From: Terriglobia bacterium
GTDB lineage: Bacteria > Acidobacteriota > Terriglobia > JAIQFV01
Length of the DNA stretch: 64,000 bases
Assembly: GCA_020073085.1 (NCBI GenBank)
Contig: JAIQFV010000001.1
Location: 248,001 to 312,000, forward strand
Reading direction: 5' to 3'
The translations under genes and the position numbers were made by a program. Under the pieces are notes generated by a model. It saw nothing but the letters and a program-made list of their open reading frames with translations. It did no database searches and was not told the origin of the DNA. The first letter of the stretch is position 1. Every line of letters starts with the position of its first letter. Positions 7,431 through 35,857 of the stretch are shown piece after piece.

Positions 7431-10400
7431 TCAATCTCGTCCGAGCCCCGGGCGCCACAACACCTGTTTCCAGGCATGGAGGTAGTGATCCATGGCATCA
7501 TCGTAGTTGCCCTTCGCCAGCGCTTTGTCTCCTTTCAGCACCTCCTCATTCGCTTTATTAAGACTCGCGGGATCAGCCTCCTGCTGCTGCTGAGCATCTG
7601 CAATCACCACCAAGGCCAGGAGCCGATTTGCGTTGATCAACCGGTTGATGAAGACCTGAAGAACGGCATCAGGGATGTTGCTTTTCTTATCTCTGATGAG
7701 TTCACCCAGTTTGTCGATGCTCTCCTTATCTTCATTGAAGACCCTCTCCCCAAGTTTCGTCTTCAGGTGGGTTGGATCATTCCAATAGCCACCATCGAGT
7801 GACTTCGTCAAGCGTCGGATGACTTCGTCGAGCTTCTGTCTGTCTTCTTTATCGGCGACCGTAGCGCGGAGCGCCGAGATGGCACTGAGGACACTTTGCT
7901 TGATACCGAGAGGCCCCAGCACGATGATAGATACCTCGGCGCTCGCTACTCCACCGTGTCCGTCATTCACGGTAAGCGTCATGTTGTTCACGCCAAGGGG
8001 ACAGGTGAGCGTTGCCACTCCGTTGGATGCTGACCCGCACGATCCGTTCCAGGAGAATGCGAGCGTGCCTCCGTCAGGAGCGCTGCCGGAGCCGCTGAAA
8101 TTGACGCTTGCGCCTGGGGGTGCCGTGGCATCGATTATTTGATTCGCCCCTGCAATGACTGTAGGTGGCAAGTTCTGGATTCCCGGTGCACCTGGATCAA
8201 CGATCTCTCCATTGGCGATGCGGTCGGCATCGAACGGAGCGAAGCCGTCCGTCAGAGTCAGGATCACATTGTTTCCGGAGAACACCGCATTTTGGACCCT
8301 CATAAACTGCCCGGACGGGCCTAAGATCTTCCAATAACTATTGGCGGGGCCGGGCAGAGAGATCGTGACCGTAATCGTTCCGCCGGGTGACACTCCAGCT
8401 ACTGAGAAGGCAATCATTCCATAGGGGAACTGTACCCCGGGCGGAAGTTGTCCCAAGGCGGGTGAGACGCTTACGGCATGCAGTGAAGTCCCGGGCGGAG
8501 ACGTGATAGTGATGGGCCCGGCCGGACCAATGACGGTGGCGATATTTCGCGCTGAGACCGTGAGACTGGCGGTGGCGGTGTGCGTCGAAGACGCCGACGT
8601 GCCGGTCACTGTGATGGTGGCTGTTCCACCCGTGGTCAACGTGCTAACGACGAGGGTGAGAGTGGAGCTACCGCCCGCCGTGACCGAGGCGGGGCTGAAC
8701 GAACCCGTCACGCCGGGGGGAAAACCTGAGACGGCAAGGCTAACATTCTCCGCAACGCCACTCGTGAGAGCGGTAGTGATCGTGAAGGTGGTCGTCGCGC
8801 CCTGAGTCAGCGATGCGACGAGCGGGCTCATGGCGATCGAGAAGTTATTCGCCGCTGTGACCGTGATGGTGGCGGTGGTCGTGTTGTCGGATAGATTGGG
8901 CTCCGCGAAGGCGACGCACCGCGGGTTCGGGGGGCAGGCGGTCACGGTAGCGGTGTTGGTCAGGGGAGCCGATGCCTGGCCGGCAGGCAGAGCGGCCGCA
9001 TCGATGACGGCATCGTATTCAACGGTCCACTTTCCACCCGGGAGCAACATTTGCTGTAGAGTTGAAGCGGTGATCCAGGTGCACGTGAGTACCTGCGGTG
9101 TGCCACTCACCGTACAAGTGGGCAGGGGCTCTCCCGCAATGAGAGGAGTCCTCGGGTTCCCCGGGGTCGCGGAATTGATTGTCAGCCCCGCTGGCAACGT
9201 GTCCGTCAAAGTGAACACTCCGGACGCGGTGCCGCTCGTGGGTCCGTTGCTCACTTCAATAGTGTAGTGCACCGTTTCCCCAACGCCTGCCGTGGCCTTA
9301 TCGGACAGCTTTCGCACGGCCAGGTCCGGAGCGCTCACGGTGATGGTGGCGGTGGCCGTGTTGTCGGCTAGATTGGGCTCCGCGAGGGCGGTGCAGGGGC
9401 TGGAGGTCGGGGTGCAGGCGGTCACAGTGGCGGTGTTGGTCAGTGTAGCTGATGACTGTCCGGTGGGCAGAACCGACGTGTCAACGACGGCATCGTATTC
9501 GAGGGTCCACGTTCCGCCAGGAGGCAGTTGATTCTGGACAGAACTGTAAGCCCATGTGCAAGTGAGTACCTGCGGAGAGACCGACACCGTGCAGAATGGC
9601 ATGAGCTCTCCTGGCAGGAGTGGGACTCTCAGGTTCCCCAGGGTCGTGGAATCAATCGTCAGCCCCACCGGCAACGTGTCCGTCATCATGATTTCCCCAT
9701 ATGTGGCGTCGGCATTGGTTCCGTTGCTCACTTCAATGGTGTAGTGCACCGTTTCCCCGACGCCTGCCGTGGTCTTACCGGACAGTTTCCGCACGGACAA
9801 GTCCGGACCGGGTAGAGGGGCCGCCACAAACATGAAGGCATGGCCTTGCCCGTTGATTCTGCCATTCCCTGCGATCTGTCCATTGTCATTGACAGTCACT
9901 GCCGAATCCAAACTCTGCCAGGCCGGGGACGTGCTCGAAATAGCCTTCATCACACCGTTTCTATAGATGAATGCACGCTGTCCGTTCGCTGTCGTTGACG
10001 CACCCACCGTCGTGCCCGAGCCATTGACAGCGATCGCCCAGCTCCGTGCCCCCCCCAGCGTTCCGAGGTCAATCATCGCGCCTTGATTGTACAAAAAGGC
10101 ATGATAGCCCCCGGTTCCCTTATCGACACGACCCACCACTTGGCCAGAACTGTTCATGGCAACAGCAAAACTCGACAGTCCCCCGGCGCCGATGTCATTC
10201 ATCACTCCGCGGTCATAAAAAAAGGCATGCTGGGGGTTGGATGCCGCTGTCGACTGTCCCATCACCTGCCCCAGGTCATTGATGGCGTGGGCTTCGCTAT
10301 GGCCAAAGAGCCCCCCTCCGAGTGTACCGAGATCCGTCATCCCGCTGGTGCCATAGAGGAAGGCATGAAATCCACCGGTACTTTTATTTGCCGCTCCCAC

Positions 10401-26437: not shown

Positions 26438-26608
26438 GGATGTCCTCGCTTGGTTCAAGATTTGATTTCAGAGGTCGAGCCGTCCTGCACCCGGCAGGAC
26501 GTCTCCTGGAGCTTTTGATGGGGCACGCGAAGTATAACGATTCTGTGGCGAGCGGTAAAGCGGCTGGCTCCAAATGTCCAGGCTCCGGTCGTGGCCCTTG
26601 GCTTGCCG

Positions 26609-26638
26609 TTGACTTGTCGTTTCCTTACCAGATAGAAT
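26609..26638 (+). promoter_or_regulatory. Candidate sigma-70-type promoter for the S10 peptidase gene
   Basis: TTGACT (26609-26614) and TAGAAT (26633-26638) are separated by 18 bases and lie about 60 bases before the S10 peptidase start. The match to the -35/-10 consensus is good but unproven. Confidence 0.4.
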
Positions 26639-26700
26639 CCCTTCCACTCAGTTGACTTGAATTCATGCAATTCGCACTTTTATTCGGGAGGGCGGCAACA

Positions 26701-28260
26701 ATGCGAAGCATTTGGGGTCCTGGTGTGCTGGCTATACTTTTGATTTCGGGGCAGGCGACAAAAGGTGTTGCGCAGACGCCGGAGCGAGATTCGAAGGCTG
26801 CAGGAGCCAAGGCTGCCAGCGAGGTTCCGCCCCCCAAAGAGGAATCCTCCGTAACCGAACACTCCCTTCGCATCGACGGGCAAGCAATCCCCTACAAGGC
26901 AACGGCGGGGACGATTTTGATCAAGGATACGCATGGCGAGCCGACCGCCGCCATCTTTTACATCGCCTACACGCGGGCCGACGTGAAGGATTTGAACCAG
27001 CGGCCCCTTGCATTTCTATACAACGGGGGACCGGGATCCTCCTCGGCCTGGTGTCACATGGGCGCCTTTGGTCCCCGCCGCGTGGTAACCGCGGATGCTC
27101 AGGCGACGCCGCCTGCCCCTTATAAGATCGAAGACAACACGAACTCCCCGCTCGACAAGGCGGATCTGGTGTTCATCGACCCCGTCGGCACCGGCTTCAG
27201 CCGGGCCGTCGGAAAAGCCAAAGATAAGGACTTCTGGGGAGTCGACGAGGATGTCGAGTCGCTGGCGCAGTTCATCCTCACTTACGTCAACCGCAACGAC
27301 CGGTGGAACTCACCGAAATTCCTGATCGGCGAGAGCTACGGAACATTCCGTTCGGTCGCGCTGGCCAATTACCTGCAGTCCCGCGATGGGATGTATTTCA
27401 ACGGAATCGACCTGATCTCAACGGTCCTCGACCTGGGCACTCTCTCGTTCCATCCGGGCGAGGACATGCCTTACGTTTTTTATCTTCCCAGTTACGCCGC
27501 CACGGCCTCCTACCATAAAATCCTGAAGAACCGGCCCGAAGATTTCAGCGCATTTTTGGAGCAAGCGCGCCATTTCGCGGCAACCGAGTACGCTGACGCC
27601 CTGATGAAAGGGGCAAAGCTCAGCGGGGCTGAAAAAGGCGCTGTAGCGAAGAAGCTCGCGGGCTATACCGGCCTCGGTGAAGATTACCTCTTGAAGGCCA
27701 ATCTCCGGGTCACGCTGGGCCAATTCAGGGAAGAGTTGCAGCGCAGTGGCGGCCGCACCACCGGCCGCCTGGATGCACGGTTCTCAGGACCCATCGAAGA
27801 TCTGCTCGCGGAAAACGCCACCTACGATCCTCAGAGTGCCGCCGTTTCGGGGGCATTTACAGCCGCCTTCAACTATTATGTCCGGGATGAATTAAAATTC
27901 GGCGGGGACAAGCACTATGTTCTCGGAAATCGCGACGCGGGACGGAACTGGAACTGGAAACGCGGCGAGGCCCGGGGAGGAGGTTTCCCCGGTTCTCCGA
28001 ATGTCATGGGAGATCTGGTACAGGCCATGATAACCAATGCTCACCTCCAGATTCAGGTTGAAAACGGGCTATACGATCTGGCGACCCCCTTTTTCGCCAC
28101 CGAGTACACTATGGATCACCTCGGCCTGCCTGAAATGCTCCAGGGCCATATCCGCATGGATTACTACGATGCGGGCCATATGATGTATTTGAATGAGGAG
28201 TCCCTCGCCAAACTCAAGAAGAACGTTGCTCGGTTCATTGAGGCTGCAACCAGGCCGTAA
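26701..28260 (+). CDS. S10-family serine carboxypeptidase, exported
   Basis: 519 residues from the ATG at 26701, preceded by GGGAGGG; an upstream ATG at 26665 lacks a ribosome-binding site. A signal peptide (MRSIWGPGVLAILLISGQAT) is followed by a low-complexity segment and the S10 fold. The oxyanion/binding motif YNGGPGSSSAW lies near residue 107, the nucleophile Ser212 in GESYG, Asp459 in YDLATP and His493 in DAGHMMY. S10 enzymes remove C-terminal amino acids, usually at acidic pH. The gene diverges from the S9 peptidase across 263 bases that probably hold both promoters. Confidence 0.93.
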   Translation: MRSIWGPGVLAILLISGQATKGVAQTPERDSKAAGAKAASEVPPPKEESSVTEHSLRIDGQAIPYKATAGTILIKDTHGEPTAAIFYIAYTRADVKDLNQRPLAFLYNGGPGSSSAWCHMGAFGPRRVVTADAQATPPAPYKIEDNTNSPLDKADLVFIDPVGTGFSRAVGKAKDKDFWGVDEDVESLAQFILTYVNRNDRWNSPKFLIGESYGTFRSVALANYLQSRDGMYFNGIDLISTVLDLGTLSFHPGEDMPYVFYLPSYAATASYHKILKNRPEDFSAFLEQARHFAATEYADALMKGAKLSGAEKGAVAKKLAGYTGLGEDYLLKANLRVTLGQFREELQRSGGRTTGRLDARFSGPIEDLLAENATYDPQSAAVSGAFTAAFNYYVRDELKFGGDKHYVLGNRDAGRNWNWKRGEARGGGFPGSPNVMGDLVQAMITNAHLQIQVENGLYDLATPFFATEYTMDHLGLPEMLQGHIRMDYYDAGHMMYLNEESLAKLKKNVARFIEAATRP

Positions 28261-28596
28261 GGGGAACGAACCGGATGGATATCTGGGGCAGCGCGGAATG
28301 ATCCCGCCATCCGAGCAAGAGAATCCAAATCCCAAATTTCAAACAAAACCCAAATTCCAGTAACACCTGATTAAAGTCCGGGCAAAACGCTCCCGTGGGC
28401 AGTTGTGTCCGAAGCTCATGCTGATCGCCATTCAATACTCGTCCCTTTCCAAGGCATCCCGAGAACAGAAGTTCCCGGAAGGATGAACTCAAGAATCCTC
28501 TCGATTTTAGCCTTCGCTCCACACATAATTCGACCCGAAGCAGCCTATCGCTGGACCGGAGTGTCCACTGCATTGATGATTTCCATGGAGGATCTT
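28261..28596. other. Intergenic region before the patatin-BamA gene
   Basis: 336 bases with one A-rich dispersed repeat (28320-28360). The patatin frame remains open upstream to 28405, but this extension lacks a ribosome-binding site and would bury the signal peptide, so it is treated as non-coding. Confidence 0.5.
28320..28360. repeat. A-rich dispersed repeat, copy 2
   Basis: It shares AAAACCCAAATTCCAG with copy 1 at 22553-22602. It lies just downstream of the S10 peptidase stop. Confidence 0.6.
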
Positions 28597-30792
28597 GTGA
28601 GATCACGCCTTCCCCTGATTTTGACCTTGCTTCTCTTGTTCTTGAATGACGTCACCTCGGGACAGCAGTCCTCGCCGTCACGTGCACGTCCGAAGATCGG
28701 CATCGCTCTGGAGGGTGGAGGAGCCAAGGGCCTGGCCCACATCGGTGTATTGGAATGGCTTGAGGAACACCGGATCCCTATCGACTACATCGCGGGGACC
28801 AGTATGGGAGGTCTGGTCGGGGGCCTCTATGCCACCGGCAAACGACCGGATGAGATTCGAGAACTAATCAAGGAAATCGACTGGGACAAGGTGTTGGCAG
28901 GGAGGACGCCCTACCTGGATCTCGACTTCCGTCGCAAGGAAGATCTCCGTGCCAATCCGAATGGGCTGATTGTGGGCCTGCGCCACGGCCCCCAACTGCC
29001 GAGCGGATTGAACTCCGGCCACGAGGTGTCCCTCATTTTGGACCGCTTAGTCCTCTCTTACTCCGGGACGAATAATTTTGATGATTTGCCGATTCCATTT
29101 CGGTGCGTGGGAACCGATCTGGTTTCCGGAAAGCCAGTCGTCTTCAAAGAGGGCTCGCTGGCAGAAGCTCTGCGCTCCACCATGTCTTTGCCGGGAATCT
29201 TTTCACCGGTCAAACACGCTGGAACAGTCTTGGCGGACGGCGGGCTGTTGAACAACTTGCCCACGGATGTGGTGAAGCAGATGGGGGCAGACATCGTCAT
29301 CGCCGTCCACTTAAGTTCAGCTCCTGTTAATCCGAGGGATTTAGGGTCTCTATTAGGGGTGGCCCAGCGATCCATCGAGGTCATGATTGGCGCCAACGAA
29401 CTTCGTGGGATGGAGTTGGCCGACATTTTGATTACCGTCGATGCCGGGAATTACTCCGTCCTGGACTTCAAGAAAGCGGGTGAGATTGTGCCCCGGGGAT
29501 ACGCCGCGGCCCAAGGGAAAACGAAGATTCTTTCTGAGTTCTCTGTCGATGAGGAGGCCTGGCAGCAGGTCCTCGCGCGGCGCGAGTCGCGGCGCATCCA
29601 TTCTCAACGCACGCCGCAGTTCGTGGAGGTAAGAGGAACCAGCACAGAGATGGCTCGCGACATCCAGAAGGAGCTCTCGGGATATATGGGTCGACCGATG
29701 GAACCGGCACAGCTGGAGCGGGATCTCACCCGGCTGACCGGCGTAGGTCGCTTTAACCGGCTCAGTTATTCGATCACCGAGCGGAACGGACAACCTGGGC
29801 TCCTGATCCTCGCCGACGAAAAGGACTATGCACCACCCGTGTTCAAGCCGGGATTCGTTGTCAACGGGTCCGACCCCAAGAGTGTCCAGTTTTCTTTTGG
29901 CGGACGGCTGACCTTTCAGGATGCAGGGGGATATCGATCGGAACTGCGCTCCGATCTCTCGCTCGGCACTGTGTATGCCATTCGCTCCGAGTACTATCAT
30001 CCCCTGACCTCGTCGAGCCGTTGGTTTATTGCCCCACGAGCCGGGGCAAGCAGTTCCTCCTTCAATATCTATTCTCGAAATACACTCCTCTCCGAATACC
30101 GGATGAACCGGACTGAGGTGGGCGCCGATTTCGGGTACTCCTTCGACCGGTTCAGTGAACTTCGTCTCGGCTATGAGGTGGGTTATCTCAATGCCAGCCG
30201 GCGTATTGGCAACCCTTTGCTTCCCTCGCAAAGTGCGCGAACGGGTGCGAGCTCGCTCCGTCTGATCATGGATCGATTGGACAGCCCGGTGATTCCTCGC
30301 CGGGGAATTGGACTCGAATGGAAGGCACAATGGGTCGATGCTAATCTCGGCGCCCACTCGGGGTTCCCGCTCTCGGAGGCGACCTTTCAAGTTTTCCATC
30401 CGATCAGCGATCCCGCTTCGATCTATCTGCTGGCGGCCGGGGGAACCACCTTCGGACACAATCAAACGGGCTTGCCGCCCTTCTCGCTGGGCGGGCCATC
30501 GCGGCTGGCCGCCTATGGCATCAATGAATTTCTCACGAACCAGTACTTCTATTTTCGGGCGGGCTATCTCCACCGGTTGGCCCAGTTGCCTCCCTTCCTG
30601 GGTAATGCCATTTACATCTCAGGCCTGTATGAAGTCGGGAAGGCCTACAACCTGTCGAACGTCACGGGTCTGCCCAACGACGGGGCAGTTGGGCTGGTCG
30701 TCGAAACGGTCCTCGGTCCGGCTTTCATCGGCGGCAGTTTGGGAGACAGTGCTCACCGAAAATGGTTCTTCCAGTTGGGAAAGGTGTTCTGA
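28597..30792 (+). CDS. Patatin-like phospholipase fused to POTRA and BamA-type barrel (type Vd autotransporter, PlpD-like)
   Basis: 731 residues. The GTG at 28597 is preferred because GGAGG sits five bases upstream and a signal peptide follows directly (RSRLPLILTLLLLFLNDV). Residues ~33-300 are a patatin domain with the oxyanion loop EGGGAKGLAH, nucleophile Ser69 in GTSMGG and Asp214 in ADGGLLNN, a complete Ser/Asp dyad. A single POTRA-like domain (~330-410) and a 16-strand BamA-like barrel follow, ending in the aromatic WFFQLGKVF. This is the layout of type Vd secretion systems such as Pseudomonas PlpD, in which the barrel exports the lipase domain. Phospholipase A activity is expected from the family. 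The 172-bp repeat array starts about 30 bases after the stop. Confidence 0.92.
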   Translation: MRSRLPLILTLLLLFLNDVTSGQQSSPSRARPKIGIALEGGGAKGLAHIGVLEWLEEHRIPIDYIAGTSMGGLVGGLYATGKRPDEIRELIKEIDWDKVLAGRTPYLDLDFRRKEDLRANPNGLIVGLRHGPQLPSGLNSGHEVSLILDRLVLSYSGTNNFDDLPIPFRCVGTDLVSGKPVVFKEGSLAEALRSTMSLPGIFSPVKHAGTVLADGGLLNNLPTDVVKQMGADIVIAVHLSSAPVNPRDLGSLLGVAQRSIEVMIGANELRGMELADILITVDAGNYSVLDFKKAGEIVPRGYAAAQGKTKILSEFSVDEEAWQQVLARRESRRIHSQRTPQFVEVRGTSTEMARDIQKELSGYMGRPMEPAQLERDLTRLTGVGRFNRLSYSITERNGQPGLLILADEKDYAPPVFKPGFVVNGSDPKSVQFSFGGRLTFQDAGGYRSELRSDLSLGTVYAIRSEYYHPLTSSSRWFIAPRAGASSSSFNIYSRNTLLSEYRMNRTEVGADFGYSFDRFSELRLGYEVGYLNASRRIGNPLLPSQSARTGASSLRLIMDRLDSPVIPRRGIGLEWKAQWVDANLGAHSGFPLSEATFQVFHPISDPASIYLLAAGGTTFGHNQTGLPPFSLGGPSRLAAYGINEFLTNQYFYFRAGYLHRLAQLPPFLGNAIYISGLYEVGKAYNLSNVTGLPNDGAVGLVVETVLGPAFIGGSLGDSAHRKWFFQLGKVF

Positions 30793-30824
30793 CCGATCGT
30801 GGGCACTTGAAGCCGGGCGATCCC

Positions 30825-31738
30825 ATGAGCCATGCAGGCGCATGCAAGCAAAGAACGCCGGGTGCCGCAGACATGCGCTTTTTGCATGTCTGCGAACCCC
30901 ACCCCGCCGGATTGCCTCACCAGATCATCCTGGCGCTCCCATGAGCCATGCAGGCGCATGCATGCAAAGAACGCATGCGTGCGGCACCCCAAGCCAATCT
31001 TTCCCATGAGGCCCAGGACCACAGACCATCCGGGTGCCGCAGATATGCGCTTTTTGCATGTCTGCGAACCCCACCCCGCCGGATTGCCTCGCCAGATCAT
31101 CCTGGCGCTCCCATGAGCCATGCAGGCGCATGCATGCAAGGAACGCATGCGTGCGGCACCCCAAGCCAACCTTTCCCATGAGGTCCAGGACCACAGACCA
31201 TCCGGGTGCCGCAGATATGTGACCGCCGCGGTGCGCATGTCTGCGAACCCCACCCCGCCGGATTGCCTCGCCGGATCATCCTGGTGCTCCCGTGACCCAT
31301 GCAGGCGCATGCATGCAAAGAACGCATGCGTGCGGCACCCCAAGCCAACCTTTCCCATGAGGTCCAGGACCACAGACCATCCGGGTGCCGCAGACATGCG
31401 CTTTTTGCATGTCTGCGAACCCCACCCCGCCGGATTGCCTCGCCGGATCATCCTGGCGCTCCCGTGACCCATGCAGGCGCATGCATGCAAAGAACGCATG
31501 CGTGCGGCACCCCAAGCCAATCTTTCCCATGAGGCCCAGGACCACAGACCATCCGGGTGCCGCAGACATGCGCTTTTTGCATGTCTGCGAACCCCACTCC
31601 GCCGGATTGCCTCACCAGATCATCCTGGCGCTCCCGTGACCCATGCAGGCGCATGCATGCAAAGAACGCATGCGTGCGGCACCCCAAGCCGATCTTTCCC
31701 GTGAGGCCGAGGAGCGCTGACCATCCGGGTCCCGCACC
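30825..31738. repeat. Tandem array of a ~172-bp hairpin-rich unit, six copies
   Basis: Measured from the ATGAGCCATG/GTGACCCATG landmark, units begin at 30825, 30941, 31113, 31292, 31464 and 31636. Spacings are 116, 172, 179, 172 and 172 bases, and the last copy is partial. Copy 1 lacks ~56 internal bases; copy 3 carries seven extra bases in a hairpin loop. Copies are otherwise nearly identical. Each full unit holds a stem GCAGACATGC/GCATGTCTGC, a stem CGCCAG/CTGGCG and a stem GCATGCATGC/GCATGCGTGC. Long open frames cross the array on both strands, but the period is not a multiple of three and no frame has a ribosome-binding site or motif, so coding is not supported. Confidence 0.9.
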
Positions 31739-31972
31739 GGATTGTATTGCAACCCCTGATTCCTCCCCCGAATTGCCGTTTCTGATTTACCTCTTTGGAA
31801 TCCCTGACGTATACTCTCTTCGACCGGACCTTTCACGGGAGAAGACCTCGTGGTCCCCTGAAGTTCCCAATTTGTTCGGCTGTCATCTCGTTTTCCTTCG
31901 GCCTCAATGCAGAGGGACCCAGGCCAATCCATCGAATTCGGGGAGACCACAGACGGGCTTGATCCATCGAAG
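31739..31972. other. Intergenic region upstream of the ABC transporter genes
   Basis: Non-repetitive sequence after the tandem array, probably holding the promoter of the ABC operon. No confident promoter or hairpin was identified. An in-frame ATG at 31907 could extend the ATPase N-terminus. Confidence 0.45.
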
Positions 31973-32755
31973 ATGATCACTCCTACCCCTCAAACAACCC
32001 ATGCCATCGAAACGAGCGGACTGACGCGGCGCTTTGGAAATCTCTATGCCGTGGATGGCCTCGACCTGCGAGTCGAGGTGGGGACGTTTTACGGCTTCTT
32101 AGGTCCCAACGGGGCAGGAAAATCGACCACCATGAAAATGTTGACCGGCCTGCTGGCACCGACGAGCGGATCGATCCGGATATTCGACCAGCCGATGGCG
32201 GACACGGACGAGACCCGATGGATGAAGCGCCGAATGGGAGTGGTTCCCGAAGATTTTGCGCTCTTTGACAATCTAACGGCACGCGAATACCTCACCTTTA
32301 TCGGACGGATGTACTTGCTGCCGCTTCCGACCGTGCGCGAGCGTTGCCAGCAATTGTTGGAAATGATGAGCCTCGAGAACGAAGAAACGAAGCTCACCCT
32401 CGAATTCTCACACGGCATGAAGAAGAAGCTGGCTCTCGCGGCAGCGCTGATCGCGGACCCGGATCTCCTGTTTCTGGATGAGCCGTTTGAAGGCATCGAT
32501 GCGGTCTCGTCTCGCGTCCTGCGCGACATCCTCAAGCGCGCGGTCGAGCGCGGCGCCACCGTGTTTCTCACCTCGCACATTCTCGAGATTGTCGAGAAAC
32601 TCTGCACCGATGTCGGCATCATTGCCAAAGGGAAACTGGTGCATCAGGCTTCGATGGACGAGATCCGTCAAAAGGGCTCGCTTGAGGATGTCTTTCTGAA
32701 AACGGTTGGGAGCGAACAGGCGGAGGCCCGCAAGTTGAGCTGGCTGGAAGAATAA
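31973..32755 (+). CDS. ABC transporter ATP-binding protein
   Basis: 260 residues from the ATG at 31973; an in-frame ATG at 31907 would add 22 unconserved residues. Walker A is GPNGAGKST (44-52), the Q-loop region lies around VVPEDF, the signature is degenerate (EFSHGMKKKLALA, about 144-156, where LSGGQ is usual), Walker B is LLFLDEP (165-171) and the switch His is in LTSH. The lone DevR/CcmA-type ATPase followed 130 bases later by an ABC-2-like permease indicates a two-gene exporter. Substrate unknown; the family covers drugs, lipids and polysaccharides. Confidence 0.88.
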   Translation: MITPTPQTTHAIETSGLTRRFGNLYAVDGLDLRVEVGTFYGFLGPNGAGKSTTMKMLTGLLAPTSGSIRIFDQPMADTDETRWMKRRMGVVPEDFALFDNLTAREYLTFIGRMYLLPLPTVRERCQQLLEMMSLENEETKLTLEFSHGMKKKLALAAALIADPDLLFLDEPFEGIDAVSSRVLRDILKRAVERGATVFLTSHILEIVEKLCTDVGIIAKGKLVHQASMDEIRQKGSLEDVFLKTVGSEQAEARKLSWLEE

Positions 32756-32885
32756 GCTCAGGCCTCTGATCCTCCGGGGGGGGAATGGTCTCCCCGCTTT
32801 CAAGAGACGGTCCAGTGAGACCGAGAGCCGGATCACCGGCCTTTAATATCGCCTCGTGTATACGGCGGATTCACAGGGAATGAAC

Positions 32886-34655
32886 ATGAACTGGAATCAG
32901 TTAAAAACCGTCCTGTGGTTGCGCTGGCGCCTGATGAGAAACCAGTTTTCCCGCCGCGGCAAGTTGAACGCCGTCCTCACCGTCGTCCTCACTGCTTTGG
33001 GATTGACTGTTTCAGTAGGCGGCTTCTTTGGCGGGGTGATATTTGGCGCGTGGCCGCTCAGGAACGCCCCTCCCCTGGTCCTGATGCTGGTGTGGGACTT
33101 CATCATCGGCATTTTCCTCTTCTTCTGGATTCTTGGAATCGTCCGTGAAATCCAGCGGGCGGAATCCCTCGACATCAAGAAGTTATTGCACCTGCCGGTT
33201 TCCCTCCAACAGGTCTTCCTGGTGAATTACATCGCCTCCCATTTCACCTTTGAAATCGTCCTGTTCATGCCGGGGATGATCGGGCTCTGTTTGGGGTTGG
33301 TGTGGAGCAAGGGGTGGCCGATGATCGGGCTGGTTCCTCTGATTCTCGGCTTCCTCTTTATGATGACGGCGTGGACGTACTATCTCCGGGGCTGGCTGGT
33401 CGCACTGATGGCCAACCCGCGCCGTCGGCGCGCCCTCATTGTTGGAGCAACGGCAGCCATCATCGTGCTCGCCCAATTGCCCAACCTGTTCAATATCGTC
33501 TCCCATCCCGGGCGCCGCGGGACCCTTGAGAACCGCTCCTCGTCGGAACGCCGCCTCAGGGCGCCGCGAAGGAGCCTTGAAGACCGGTTAGCGCTTTCGC
33601 CCACGTTCCTGTCTGCGCACAGATATGTTCCGCCATTGTGGGTGGGCGGGGGCGCCTCAGCCCTGGCTTCCGGGCGCGCGTGGCCGGCGGTAGCAGGCTC
33701 ACTGGCAGCCCTCTTGATTGGTTCTTTGGGCCTGGCACGAGCTTACCGCTCAACTCGACGATTTTATTTTGGGGAACAGACCGGTGACAGACCTCCGACC
33801 AGAAAGGACCTGCCTCCCGCCGAAACCACTTTGGCCCCCTCCCTCCGACACGCCGGAAAGAATTTTCTGGAGAAGGACCTTCCGATCGTTCCCCGGGAGA
33901 CTGCGCCCTTATCGCTGGCATTTTTCAGGGGCCTCACACGGGCCCCTGAGGTGAAAATGTCGTTGGCCACGAATTTTATTATGATCGTGGTTTTCTCAGC
34001 CCTCTTCCTCTCCAAGACCTGGGCCCTTCCTTCAGAGAAACTGAAACCCTTTGTGGCCAGTGCCGCCGTGGCTCTTTCGTCTTTTGGATTGACTCAACTC
34101 ATGTTCAACCAGTTCGGTTTTGAGCGTAACGGATTTCGCACCCTCGTGCTTCTGCCAACTCAACGCAAACACTACCTGCTTGCAAAGAATCTCACCCTCT
34201 TCCCCATCGCAATTGGATTGGGACTGATCTTTTTGGGGGTATTCACGGTTCTTCTACACATTGGAGTCGTTCCTTTCGTTGCAAGCTGTTTCCAATTGCT
34301 TGGGGCTTTCTTGTTGTTGAGTATCCTGGGGAATTTCGCCTCGATCATGGTCCCGTACCGCATCGCGGTCGGATCGCTAAAACCCACCAAGGTTTCGGCG
34401 AAGACCACCTTCTTCATTTTCCTATCACAAATGCTCTCTCCCATCGCTTTGATTCCGATTCTGATCTCTCCGGCTCTAGGATTCGTGTTTGATTATCTGG
34501 GGTGGTTCTCTGCGGGTCTGGTGAACCTGCTCATGTCGCTGGTCATGACGGGCCTCCTTGTGTTCCTCTACTGGATCAGCCTGGATCGGCTCGGCCGGTT
34601 GCTCCAATGGCGAGAAAAGGAGATCCTGGAAGCCGTCATCACGGAGGTCGAGTAG
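32886..34655 (+). CDS. ABC-2-like transporter permease
   Basis: 589 residues from the ATG at 32886, which has AGGGA six bases upstream; ATG at 32880 is also in frame but too close to it. About 12 hydrophobic segments occur in two clusters separated by a hydrophilic, Arg/Pro-rich stretch (about residues 215-340, including LENRSSSERRLRAPRRSLED). This size exceeds the 250-400 residues of simple ABC-2 permeases and suggests a duplicated or double-domain permease. It follows its ATPase on the same strand and presumably forms the membrane channel. Substrate unknown. Confidence 0.75.
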   Translation: MNWNQLKTVLWLRWRLMRNQFSRRGKLNAVLTVVLTALGLTVSVGGFFGGVIFGAWPLRNAPPLVLMLVWDFIIGIFLFFWILGIVREIQRAESLDIKKLLHLPVSLQQVFLVNYIASHFTFEIVLFMPGMIGLCLGLVWSKGWPMIGLVPLILGFLFMMTAWTYYLRGWLVALMANPRRRRALIVGATAAIIVLAQLPNLFNIVSHPGRRGTLENRSSSERRLRAPRRSLEDRLALSPTFLSAHRYVPPLWVGGGASALASGRAWPAVAGSLAALLIGSLGLARAYRSTRRFYFGEQTGDRPPTRKDLPPAETTLAPSLRHAGKNFLEKDLPIVPRETAPLSLAFFRGLTRAPEVKMSLATNFIMIVVFSALFLSKTWALPSEKLKPFVASAAVALSSFGLTQLMFNQFGFERNGFRTLVLLPTQRKHYLLAKNLTLFPIAIGLGLIFLGVFTVLLHIGVVPFVASCFQLLGAFLLLSILGNFASIMVPYRIAVGSLKPTKVSAKTTFFIFLSQMLSPIALIPILISPALGFVFDYLGWFSAGLVNLLMSLVMTGLLVFLYWISLDRLGRLLQWREKEILEAVITEVE

Positions 34656-34727
34656 GCCCCCCCGAAGGCGAATGGTGATTCTCATTTTCCATGGTTTTAA
34701 TTATGTTCCGCTTTCACCGGAGATGGA

Positions 34728-35501
34728 ATGAACGCTTACAGGGACGACCTTTCCTATATTCACGATGTCGGCTTTGGCGGTTTCCCGAAGTCCGCTGCGG
34801 AGGGATTGCTGAAAATCCTGGGCCAGGCGGGGATAACGAAGGGGGTCATCGTCGACCTCGGCTGCGGGAGTGGAATATGGGCACAGAAGCTCTCCGATGC
34901 AGGCTACGAGGTTTGGGGGTTCGACCTTTCGCCCGCCATGATCAGGATCGCAAGAAAGCGAGTTCCCGGCGGGAAATTTCAAACCGGATCGTATCTAAAG
35001 GTCACTTTGCCGCCTTGTGATGCCGTTACGTCGCTGGGCGAATGTTTTAACTATCGGTTTGACGAGAAGAACAACCTCCGTGGGCTTTTCCGGCTGTTCC
35101 GTCGCGTGTACACAGCCCTGAGGCCGGGGGGGCTATTTCTTTTCGACATGGCCGGGCCCGGGAGAGGGAATGTCCCGCCCTCAAGGTACTGGGAGGGGAA
35201 GGGCTGGGCAATCCTCGTTAGCGTCGTGGAAGACGCCAGAAAGAAACAGTTGACGCGTCGGATCACGACATTTCGGAAGAGTGGAAGACTCTACCGCCGC
35301 GATCAAGAAACCCACAGACTGCAGTTATTTGAACGATCCGAAATCAAGAAACAACTTCGCCAGGCAGGATTCTCGGTACGCTCTCTGCCCAGTTACGGAA
35401 GATTACCCCTCCCCAAGAGCTGTTTTGCTTTCATGGCGTGCAAACCCTGCCCCGCGACAAGCCTGAGTCGACGACGAGCGGTTGAAGTGAGTTCTTCTTA
35501 A
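34728..35501 (+). CDS. Class I SAM-dependent methyltransferase
   Basis: 257 residues with a Rossmann-like methyltransferase core. Motif I is VDLGCGSGIW (about 43-52), motif II acidic end is WGFDLSPAM, and the post-IV region is LRPGGLFLFDMAG. The small-molecule methyltransferase group (Methyltransf_25 type) is the best fit. The substrate cannot be predicted. GGAG lies upstream of the ATG at a suitable distance. It follows the ABC permease by 72 bases on the same strand, so co-transcription is possible though functional linkage is unproven. Confidence 0.85.
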   Translation: MNAYRDDLSYIHDVGFGGFPKSAAEGLLKILGQAGITKGVIVDLGCGSGIWAQKLSDAGYEVWGFDLSPAMIRIARKRVPGGKFQTGSYLKVTLPPCDAVTSLGECFNYRFDEKNNLRGLFRLFRRVYTALRPGGLFLFDMAGPGRGNVPPSRYWEGKGWAILVSVVEDARKKQLTRRITTFRKSGRLYRRDQETHRLQLFERSEIKKQLRQAGFSVRSLPSYGRLPLPKSCFAFMACKPCPATSLSRRRAVEVSSS

Positions 35502-35857
35502 CGGTCCCCACTCACACCGAGATTTGAAATCTCCTCCAAAATCTCATTGTCTTTTTTCGTCCGGTTCCTTCTCATTTTCTCCTACAGTTCAATCTAACCT
35601 CAGCCGATAAGACCATACGAGGGTGGCGCCGGCCACGGACGAGGAACTTGCCGATCCTGCCGTTACGTTCCGTGCCAAGCAATCCATCGCCGATTCTAGA
35701 ATGAGGACGGCGAGAGTTGAGCAAGAGCGCCGTATTCCGGATCGGAAGAGGACAGTCACCTGACCTGATGGATGGAGTCCATTCGGCACGTACCTTCCAG
35801 TCATTCCATTCCCTTCATCAGACCGGCCGGGATCCACCTCGAAAGGAATCTAATCCC
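35502..35857. other. Intergenic region
   Basis: 356 bases without a supported gene. A small 15-base palindrome, GAGATTT-G-AAATCTC (35519-35533), follows the methyltransferase stop and could mark the transcript end. No other structure was seen. Confidence 0.45.

Follow-up and report, generated by a model that had tools for sequence, protein, structure and literature searches.

The stretch of DNA analysed here (the window) comprises 64,000 nucleotides from the draft genome of a Terriglobia bacterium, a little-studied Acidobacterium from soil (GCA_020073085.1, contig JAIQFV010000001.1, positions 248,001 to 312,000), and carries a repeat array between two genes lying on the same strand. The upstream gene (28405–30792, plus strand) encodes a patatin-like phospholipase with an Omp85 barrel (Pfam Patatin, 115 bits; Omp85, 32 bits), for which a codon model favours a start at 28573. 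The array is upstream of a gene for an ABC-transporter ATPase (31907–32755, plus strand; Pfam ABC_tran, 108.8 bits; start favoured by the codon model, 31973). A sigma-70-like promoter match, TTTACC-18-TATACT, which is a consensus match only, is found downstream of the array (31786–31815, plus strand), and the same promoter-like hexamers are present in a congener (G001).

Tandem Repeats Finder reports the array at 30858–31736, with a period of 172, 5.1 copies, 93% matches and a score of 1499. The preliminary description, made from the letters alone, had proposed six copies of a unit of about 172 bp; the array is real, and a repeat search reproduced the described start-to-start spacings exactly (116, 172, 179, 172 and 172), but the copies resolve into five units plus end stubs. 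The core (30858–31724) consists of five near-identical units, all of 172 bp except one of 179 bp, and a truncated copy is found at each end. The left truncated unit (30813–30857, no strand assigned) starts 21 bp past the patatin–Omp85 stop and is the tail end of a minus-strand repetitive extragenic palindromic element (REP), the head of which is missing. Each unit, read on the plus strand, contains a plus-strand REP followed by a minus-strand REP: unit 1 (30858–31029) has REP+ at 30860–30894, a spacer, REP− at 30955–30989 and a 42-nt linker; unit 2 (31030–31201) has REP+ at 31032–31066 and REP− at 31127–31161; unit 3 (31202–31380) has a variant REP+ at 31204–31245 and REP− at 31306–31340; unit 4 (31381–31552) has REP+ at 31383–31417 and REP− at 31478–31512; and unit 5 (31553–31724) has REP+ at 31555–31589 and REP− at 31650–31684. 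The right stub (31725–31738, plus strand) is a further REP+ head, with GGGTCCCGCA at 31727–31736 and unique sequence thereafter. The first hairpin of unit 3, which was read by eye and is not reported by the REP profile described below, has a different, self-complementary GC-rich loop (ACCGCCGCGGT), and this unit is 179 bp long because that loop is 7 nt longer. Pairwise differences between units amount to 4–17 per 172 positions, and unit 4, used as a query, recovers each of the other units with an E-value of 2.2e-69 or better. Variant patches are common to neighbours (three shared by units 2 and 3, two by units 3 to 5), and the linker of unit 5 is the most diverged of the linkers.

No gene was called by the codon model between 30792 and 31973, and the open reading frames of the array gave no Pfam match above cut-off (the best, TraI_middle, scored 16.9 bits against 27.6), in agreement with the earlier statement that the array contains no gene. 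The earlier rejection of a CRISPR array also stands: the whole 172-bp unit, including spacer and linker, is repeated, without unique spacers. No Rfam family reached its gathering score in the region 30000–32500, and the four sub-threshold matches there (the best to a microRNA family, E 0.011, 28.2 bits against a cut-off of 100) were treated as chance because of the palindromes.

Each unit consists of two inverted hairpins of about 35 nt, the plus- and minus-strand copies of one imperfect palindrome, with their heads pointing outward, separated by a 59-nt spacer and followed outside the pair by the 42-nt linker. The consensus of the hairpin family is GGGTGCCGCAGGCATGCGTTCTTTGCATGCCTGCG, with a stem of 11 bp that is perfect in the first hairpin and has one mismatch in the second. 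Folded as single-stranded DNA, the first hairpin has an energy of −13.9 kcal/mol (z −5.85), the second, with its stem mismatch, −10.5 kcal/mol (z −1.47), and the whole pair has a z of −3.93. An RNA copy of the pair can fold into a single long hairpin, and the folding of the unit beats 200 of 200 shuffles.

A REP profile was run over the window and 42 fetched stretches, which were picked for containing REPs or Y1 transposases and are not a random genome sample, and it yielded 148 copies, of which 119 were full-length and ungapped, representing 76 distinct sequences. In these 76 sequences, 97.2% of the stem cells pair, whereas slid structures pair at 11.5–52.3%. Changes on both sides of the stem were counted in 31 cells, against a mean of 6.7 and a maximum of 14 in 500 shuffles, although copies within a cluster are related and these events are not independent. 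The element is thus a short palindrome with a covarying stem, within the range of about 20–60 nt that defines a REP. Position 6, in the head, is C in 96% of the 119 copies, giving a GTGC head. The facing position 36 is G in only 2 of the 137 distinct GTGC copies from this genome and its relatives, and C or T in none of the 14 GTGG copies from the same genomes; we read this bias as a sign that the head tetranucleotide probably has to stay single-stranded, as a transposase guide would. If GTGC served as the guide, the foot of the hairpin should read GA or GC; bases 35–36 in the 137 distinct GTGC copies are GA in 64, GT in 40, GC in 31 and GG in 2.

The hairpins are dispersed well beyond the array. 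Unit 4 has 141 matches in its own genome, and a hairpin pattern spanning both GTGC and GTGG heads (GGGTGSC) is found there, with up to two mismatches, at 180 places (87 forward, 93 reverse). The same search gives 57 places in the congener (32 forward, 25 reverse) and 31 in G002, from a second genus of the same family (18 forward, 13 reverse); a reversed control pattern gives 0, 0 and 0 places in the three genomes. Of 151 genomes searched across the class, 4 have the pattern without mismatch, this one among them (104, 33, 21 and 1 places), and whole-unit BLAST finds matches in 4 of 31 genomes, again including this one. A GTGG-headed sister family is present in the same genome. The preliminary description was therefore right about an amplified, non-coding tandem repeat, but missed the dispersed inverted-palindrome pair, with about 180 members, of which it is made. 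REP midpoints fall inside called genes in 2 of 148 cases, in sampled sequence of which 67% is called coding by a simple codon model. Clusters lie between convergent genes in 11 cases and between divergent genes in 3 (intergenic regions, 36 and 37, respectively; p 0.077), which is only suggestive of a preference for convergent pairs. Many copies are not REPIN-like: among the 94 pairs of neighbouring REPs that lie no more than 250 nt apart in the sampled stretches, the same-strand arrangement (59) is commoner than the head-out one (27), the remaining 8 being head-in. Two same-strand arrays of single REPs, with a period of about 61–67 bp and 13 and 7 copies, were observed on contig C31 of this genome (L061, 3666–4465 and 6495–6921), and they include a REP sub-type with a shortened stem (GGCATCGCCCTTTGATGCC).

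Searches of the genome gave 19 matches to Y1_Tnp and 16 to the REP transposase model of NCBIfam. An association between hairpins and a REP-associated tyrosine transposase (RAYT), a domesticated transposase, is found in the congener, on contig C84, where a RAYT of 183 residues (NF047646, 100.9 bits, cut-off 80) is bracketed by REP pairs of both hairpin types seen in the window. The alignment of its upstream pair with the window unit extends across the inner spacer, and the two spacers resemble each other with a z of 7.0 (0 of 300 shuffles). The protein reads YMHANPVK around the tyrosine, and phmmer identified one solved relative, 4er8, named TnpArep (E 6.8e-6). Two sister RAYTs of the congener (C36), 70 and 71% identical, adjoin GTGG hairpins. 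A cognate RAYT flanked by the same hairpins thus exists in the congener, whereas in this genome the only such gene is a broken relative that adjoins GTGG hairpins. An intact RAYT to match the GTGC hairpin was not found in this assembly, a draft of 68 contigs with 98.74% completeness, so an assembly gap may account for the missing gene. Its nearest relatives here are a GTGG-type gene on contig C3, broken and interrupted by REPs, and on C7 a remnant of 42 residues; the position that corresponds by synteny to the congener's RAYT has REPs and lacks a RAYT. Fragments with only the first 30–40 or so codons of the GTGG-type RAYT were observed on C7 (L211, 2098–2220) and C3 (L066, near 5640); both end at nearly the same codon, after FDS, with a REP head directly next, and they may represent a short derivative, possibly itself copied. 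An intact, more distant RAYT of this genome (L048, 12374–14023; contig C2, 17373–19022) has tandem units of 144–146 bp on both sides, made of a different REP pair with the head GGTAGCC and the stem CGCCGGC. This locus represents another REPIN array system of the genome, alike in architecture but with other hairpins.

RAYT loci from other genomes were also considered. In 20 of 60 such loci scanned with a hairpin finder and read by the author, hairpins with matching stems were present on both sides in 12, one-sided or unmatched hairpins in 6, and no hairpins in 2 (L153 and L156). The window-family profile, applied to all 60, gave hits in L137, L138, L139, L167, L172, L178 and L179, the last two weak. 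A possible guide code, in which loss of the Gln after a conserved Trp would go with the GTGC head, was examined in 44 of the 60 loci and 3 other RAYTs and was not supported: the GTGC-headed L149–L152 keep the Gln, and the GTGG-headed L139 and L142 are without it. In other Acidobacteriota (L145, L147 and L159), RAYTs stand beside CTGG-headed hairpins, a further guide variant.

The history of the array can be followed in the congener, contig C39 of which is syntenic with window positions 26564–35790 at 81–86% identity. The corresponding intergenic region contains one REP pair and one variant REP, and the variant REP+ has a CCGCCGCGG loop, with the same loop motif as unit 3 of the window. The array is thus a lineage-specific, one-to-five tandem expansion, built, as the comparison of the two loci indicates, on an older block of a pair plus a REP. 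The earlier suggestion of amplification or concerted evolution agrees with this single unit at the syntenic locus and with the signs of exchange between units; the shared variants of neighbours and the diverged last linker are consistent with slippage or unequal exchange. At four further syntenic loci, picked for having REPs, the clusters counted have 6 and 2, 6 and 3, 9 and 2, and 6 and 3 copies in this genome and the congener, respectively. Orthologue searches for two other REP clusters gave congener matches broken over several places.

The array is best explained, with a probability of roughly 0.93, as a tandemly amplified REPIN/BIME with two inverted REPs per unit, part of a REP family that is scattered over intergenic regions and owes its origin to a RAYT (HuH/Y1) transposase. 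From the linkage of RAYT and REPs and from published work in other species, we infer that the transposase would nick and rejoin single-stranded DNA at the REP hairpins, scattering REP pairs. One pair and a third REP had settled behind the patatin–Omp85 gene before the split from the congener, as synteny shows, and a block including the 42-nt linker would then have multiplied to five in this lineage, the difference in copy number being directly visible and slippage or unequal recombination the presumed route. An origin by separate RAYT-driven insertions of REP pairs, one after another at the same site, in place of block duplication, would accord with the frequency with which REPs adjoin REPs (the 94 pairs mentioned above), but is unlikely, given that all units share the linker outside the pair. 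This linker occurs once at the congener's syntenic locus (z 10.9), is recognizable at C10 (z 7.4), weakly at C84 (z 1.9) and not at C17 (z 0.1), and the variant patches shared by neighbours fit block duplication and exchange.

A satellite or regulatory array that evolved locally, without relation to mobile REPs, and serves the patatin or ABC gene in its own right is very improbable: both hairpins of the unit are found again at dozens of other places in the genome and stand beside the congener's RAYT, even if a tandem, near-identical repeat confined to a single intergenic region, with RNA that folds better than all 200 shuffles, is what such an array would look like. A false expansion of one pair during assembly deserves equally little credence. 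The draft has 68 contigs and repeats are hard to assemble, but each of the five units is told apart by its own differences, and the congener has a hairpin corresponding to the unusual one of unit 3. The usual error of short-read assembly is to collapse repeats rather than to invent diverged copies. It is conceivable, though doubtful, that the GTGC family, having switched its guide from GTGG, outlived its transposase and grew by recombination or through a non-cognate RAYT; this idea arises from the 180 GGGTGSC hairpins here against 57 in the congener, the multiplication of one REPIN to five and the failure to find an intact cognate RAYT.

The array belongs to the known REP/BIME (REPIN) kind, as described in Pseudomonas, and membership of a described repeat class is an outcome that the preliminary description had named as refuting it; a GTGC guide in place of GT[AG]G and the failure to find an intact cognate RAYT in this genome are mildly unusual. 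In the available text on Pseudomonas fluorescens SBW25 (PMC3116915), ordered REPIN clusters likewise consist of inverted REP doublets and lie beside RAYTs, whereas the array described here has another hairpin sequence, a GTGC head, five units plus stubs, a host from another phylum and no intact cognate RAYT found in the genome. Escherichia coli BIMEs with TnpA_REP (solved chain 4er8), as presented in the accessible part of PMC8266576, combine a REP, an inverted REP and a linker, often in consecutive tandem copies, with a tetranucleotide for cleavage preceding the hairpin (as it does here, by sequence), but have a GTAG guide and a bulged stem rather than GTGC and an 11-bp stem. The GTAG-tagged families covered in the available portion of PMC3733652 share head-outward dimers, variants whose long, GC-rich loops are self-complementary (in some of the families), a location between unidirectional or convergent genes, and clusters reiterated with flanking DNA. 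The tag variants given in that portion are GYAG, GYRG, GTRG, GTMG and GTGG, without GTGC, and the window family has GTGC instead of the unpaired GT[AG]G at the stem foot that strictly marks the GTAG superfamily. In the same phylum, inverted repeats or hairpins flank the Y1 transposase gene in acidobacterial TIRYT (PMC3733652) and class 3 TnpA (PMC6006769) elements, and the available text of both sources indicates that some of these repeats form families, with about 600 copies in Solibacter. In class 3 TnpA the foot is CnGA and the motif Y----Q (PMC6006769, as far as available), whereas the RAYT found here fits the REP transposase model of NCBIfam and has YMHANPVK around its tyrosine. Deletions have removed REPtrons from many strains of E. 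coli (PMC3733652, available part), and E. coli genomes without a RAYT keep REPINs, though fewer (PMC8049555, available part); both the array and persistence without a RAYT are therefore of a known kind. The accessible text of two papers on RAYTs or repetitive extragenic palindromic elements and Acidobacteria yielded no description of this hairpin family.

If the array is active at all, its hairpins would most likely act in the trailer of the patatin–Omp85 mRNA, through 3′-end protection or attenuation, and an effect on the 3′ end of this mRNA is suggested by analogy with roles proposed for REPs in other bacteria; the position in a gene trailer is equally compatible with a neutral repeat. A terminator search found none (1.0 expected), so a role as an intrinsic terminator is unsupported.

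These observations extend RAYT/REPIN biology, which in the accessible text of the cited papers concerns mostly Proteobacteria, to an uncultured genus of Terriglobia, and the two genomes provide a clear before-and-after pair for the expansion. Sister RAYTs about 70% identical, standing beside GTGC and GTGG hairpins, open the question of guide recognition to biochemistry, and arrays of this type are better annotated as REP/BIME than as orphan satellites. Elsewhere in the window (8863–9807), Tandem Repeats Finder reports a two-copy tandem repeat of 477 bp with 77% matches; this period is a multiple of three, so the region perhaps encodes a repeat protein.
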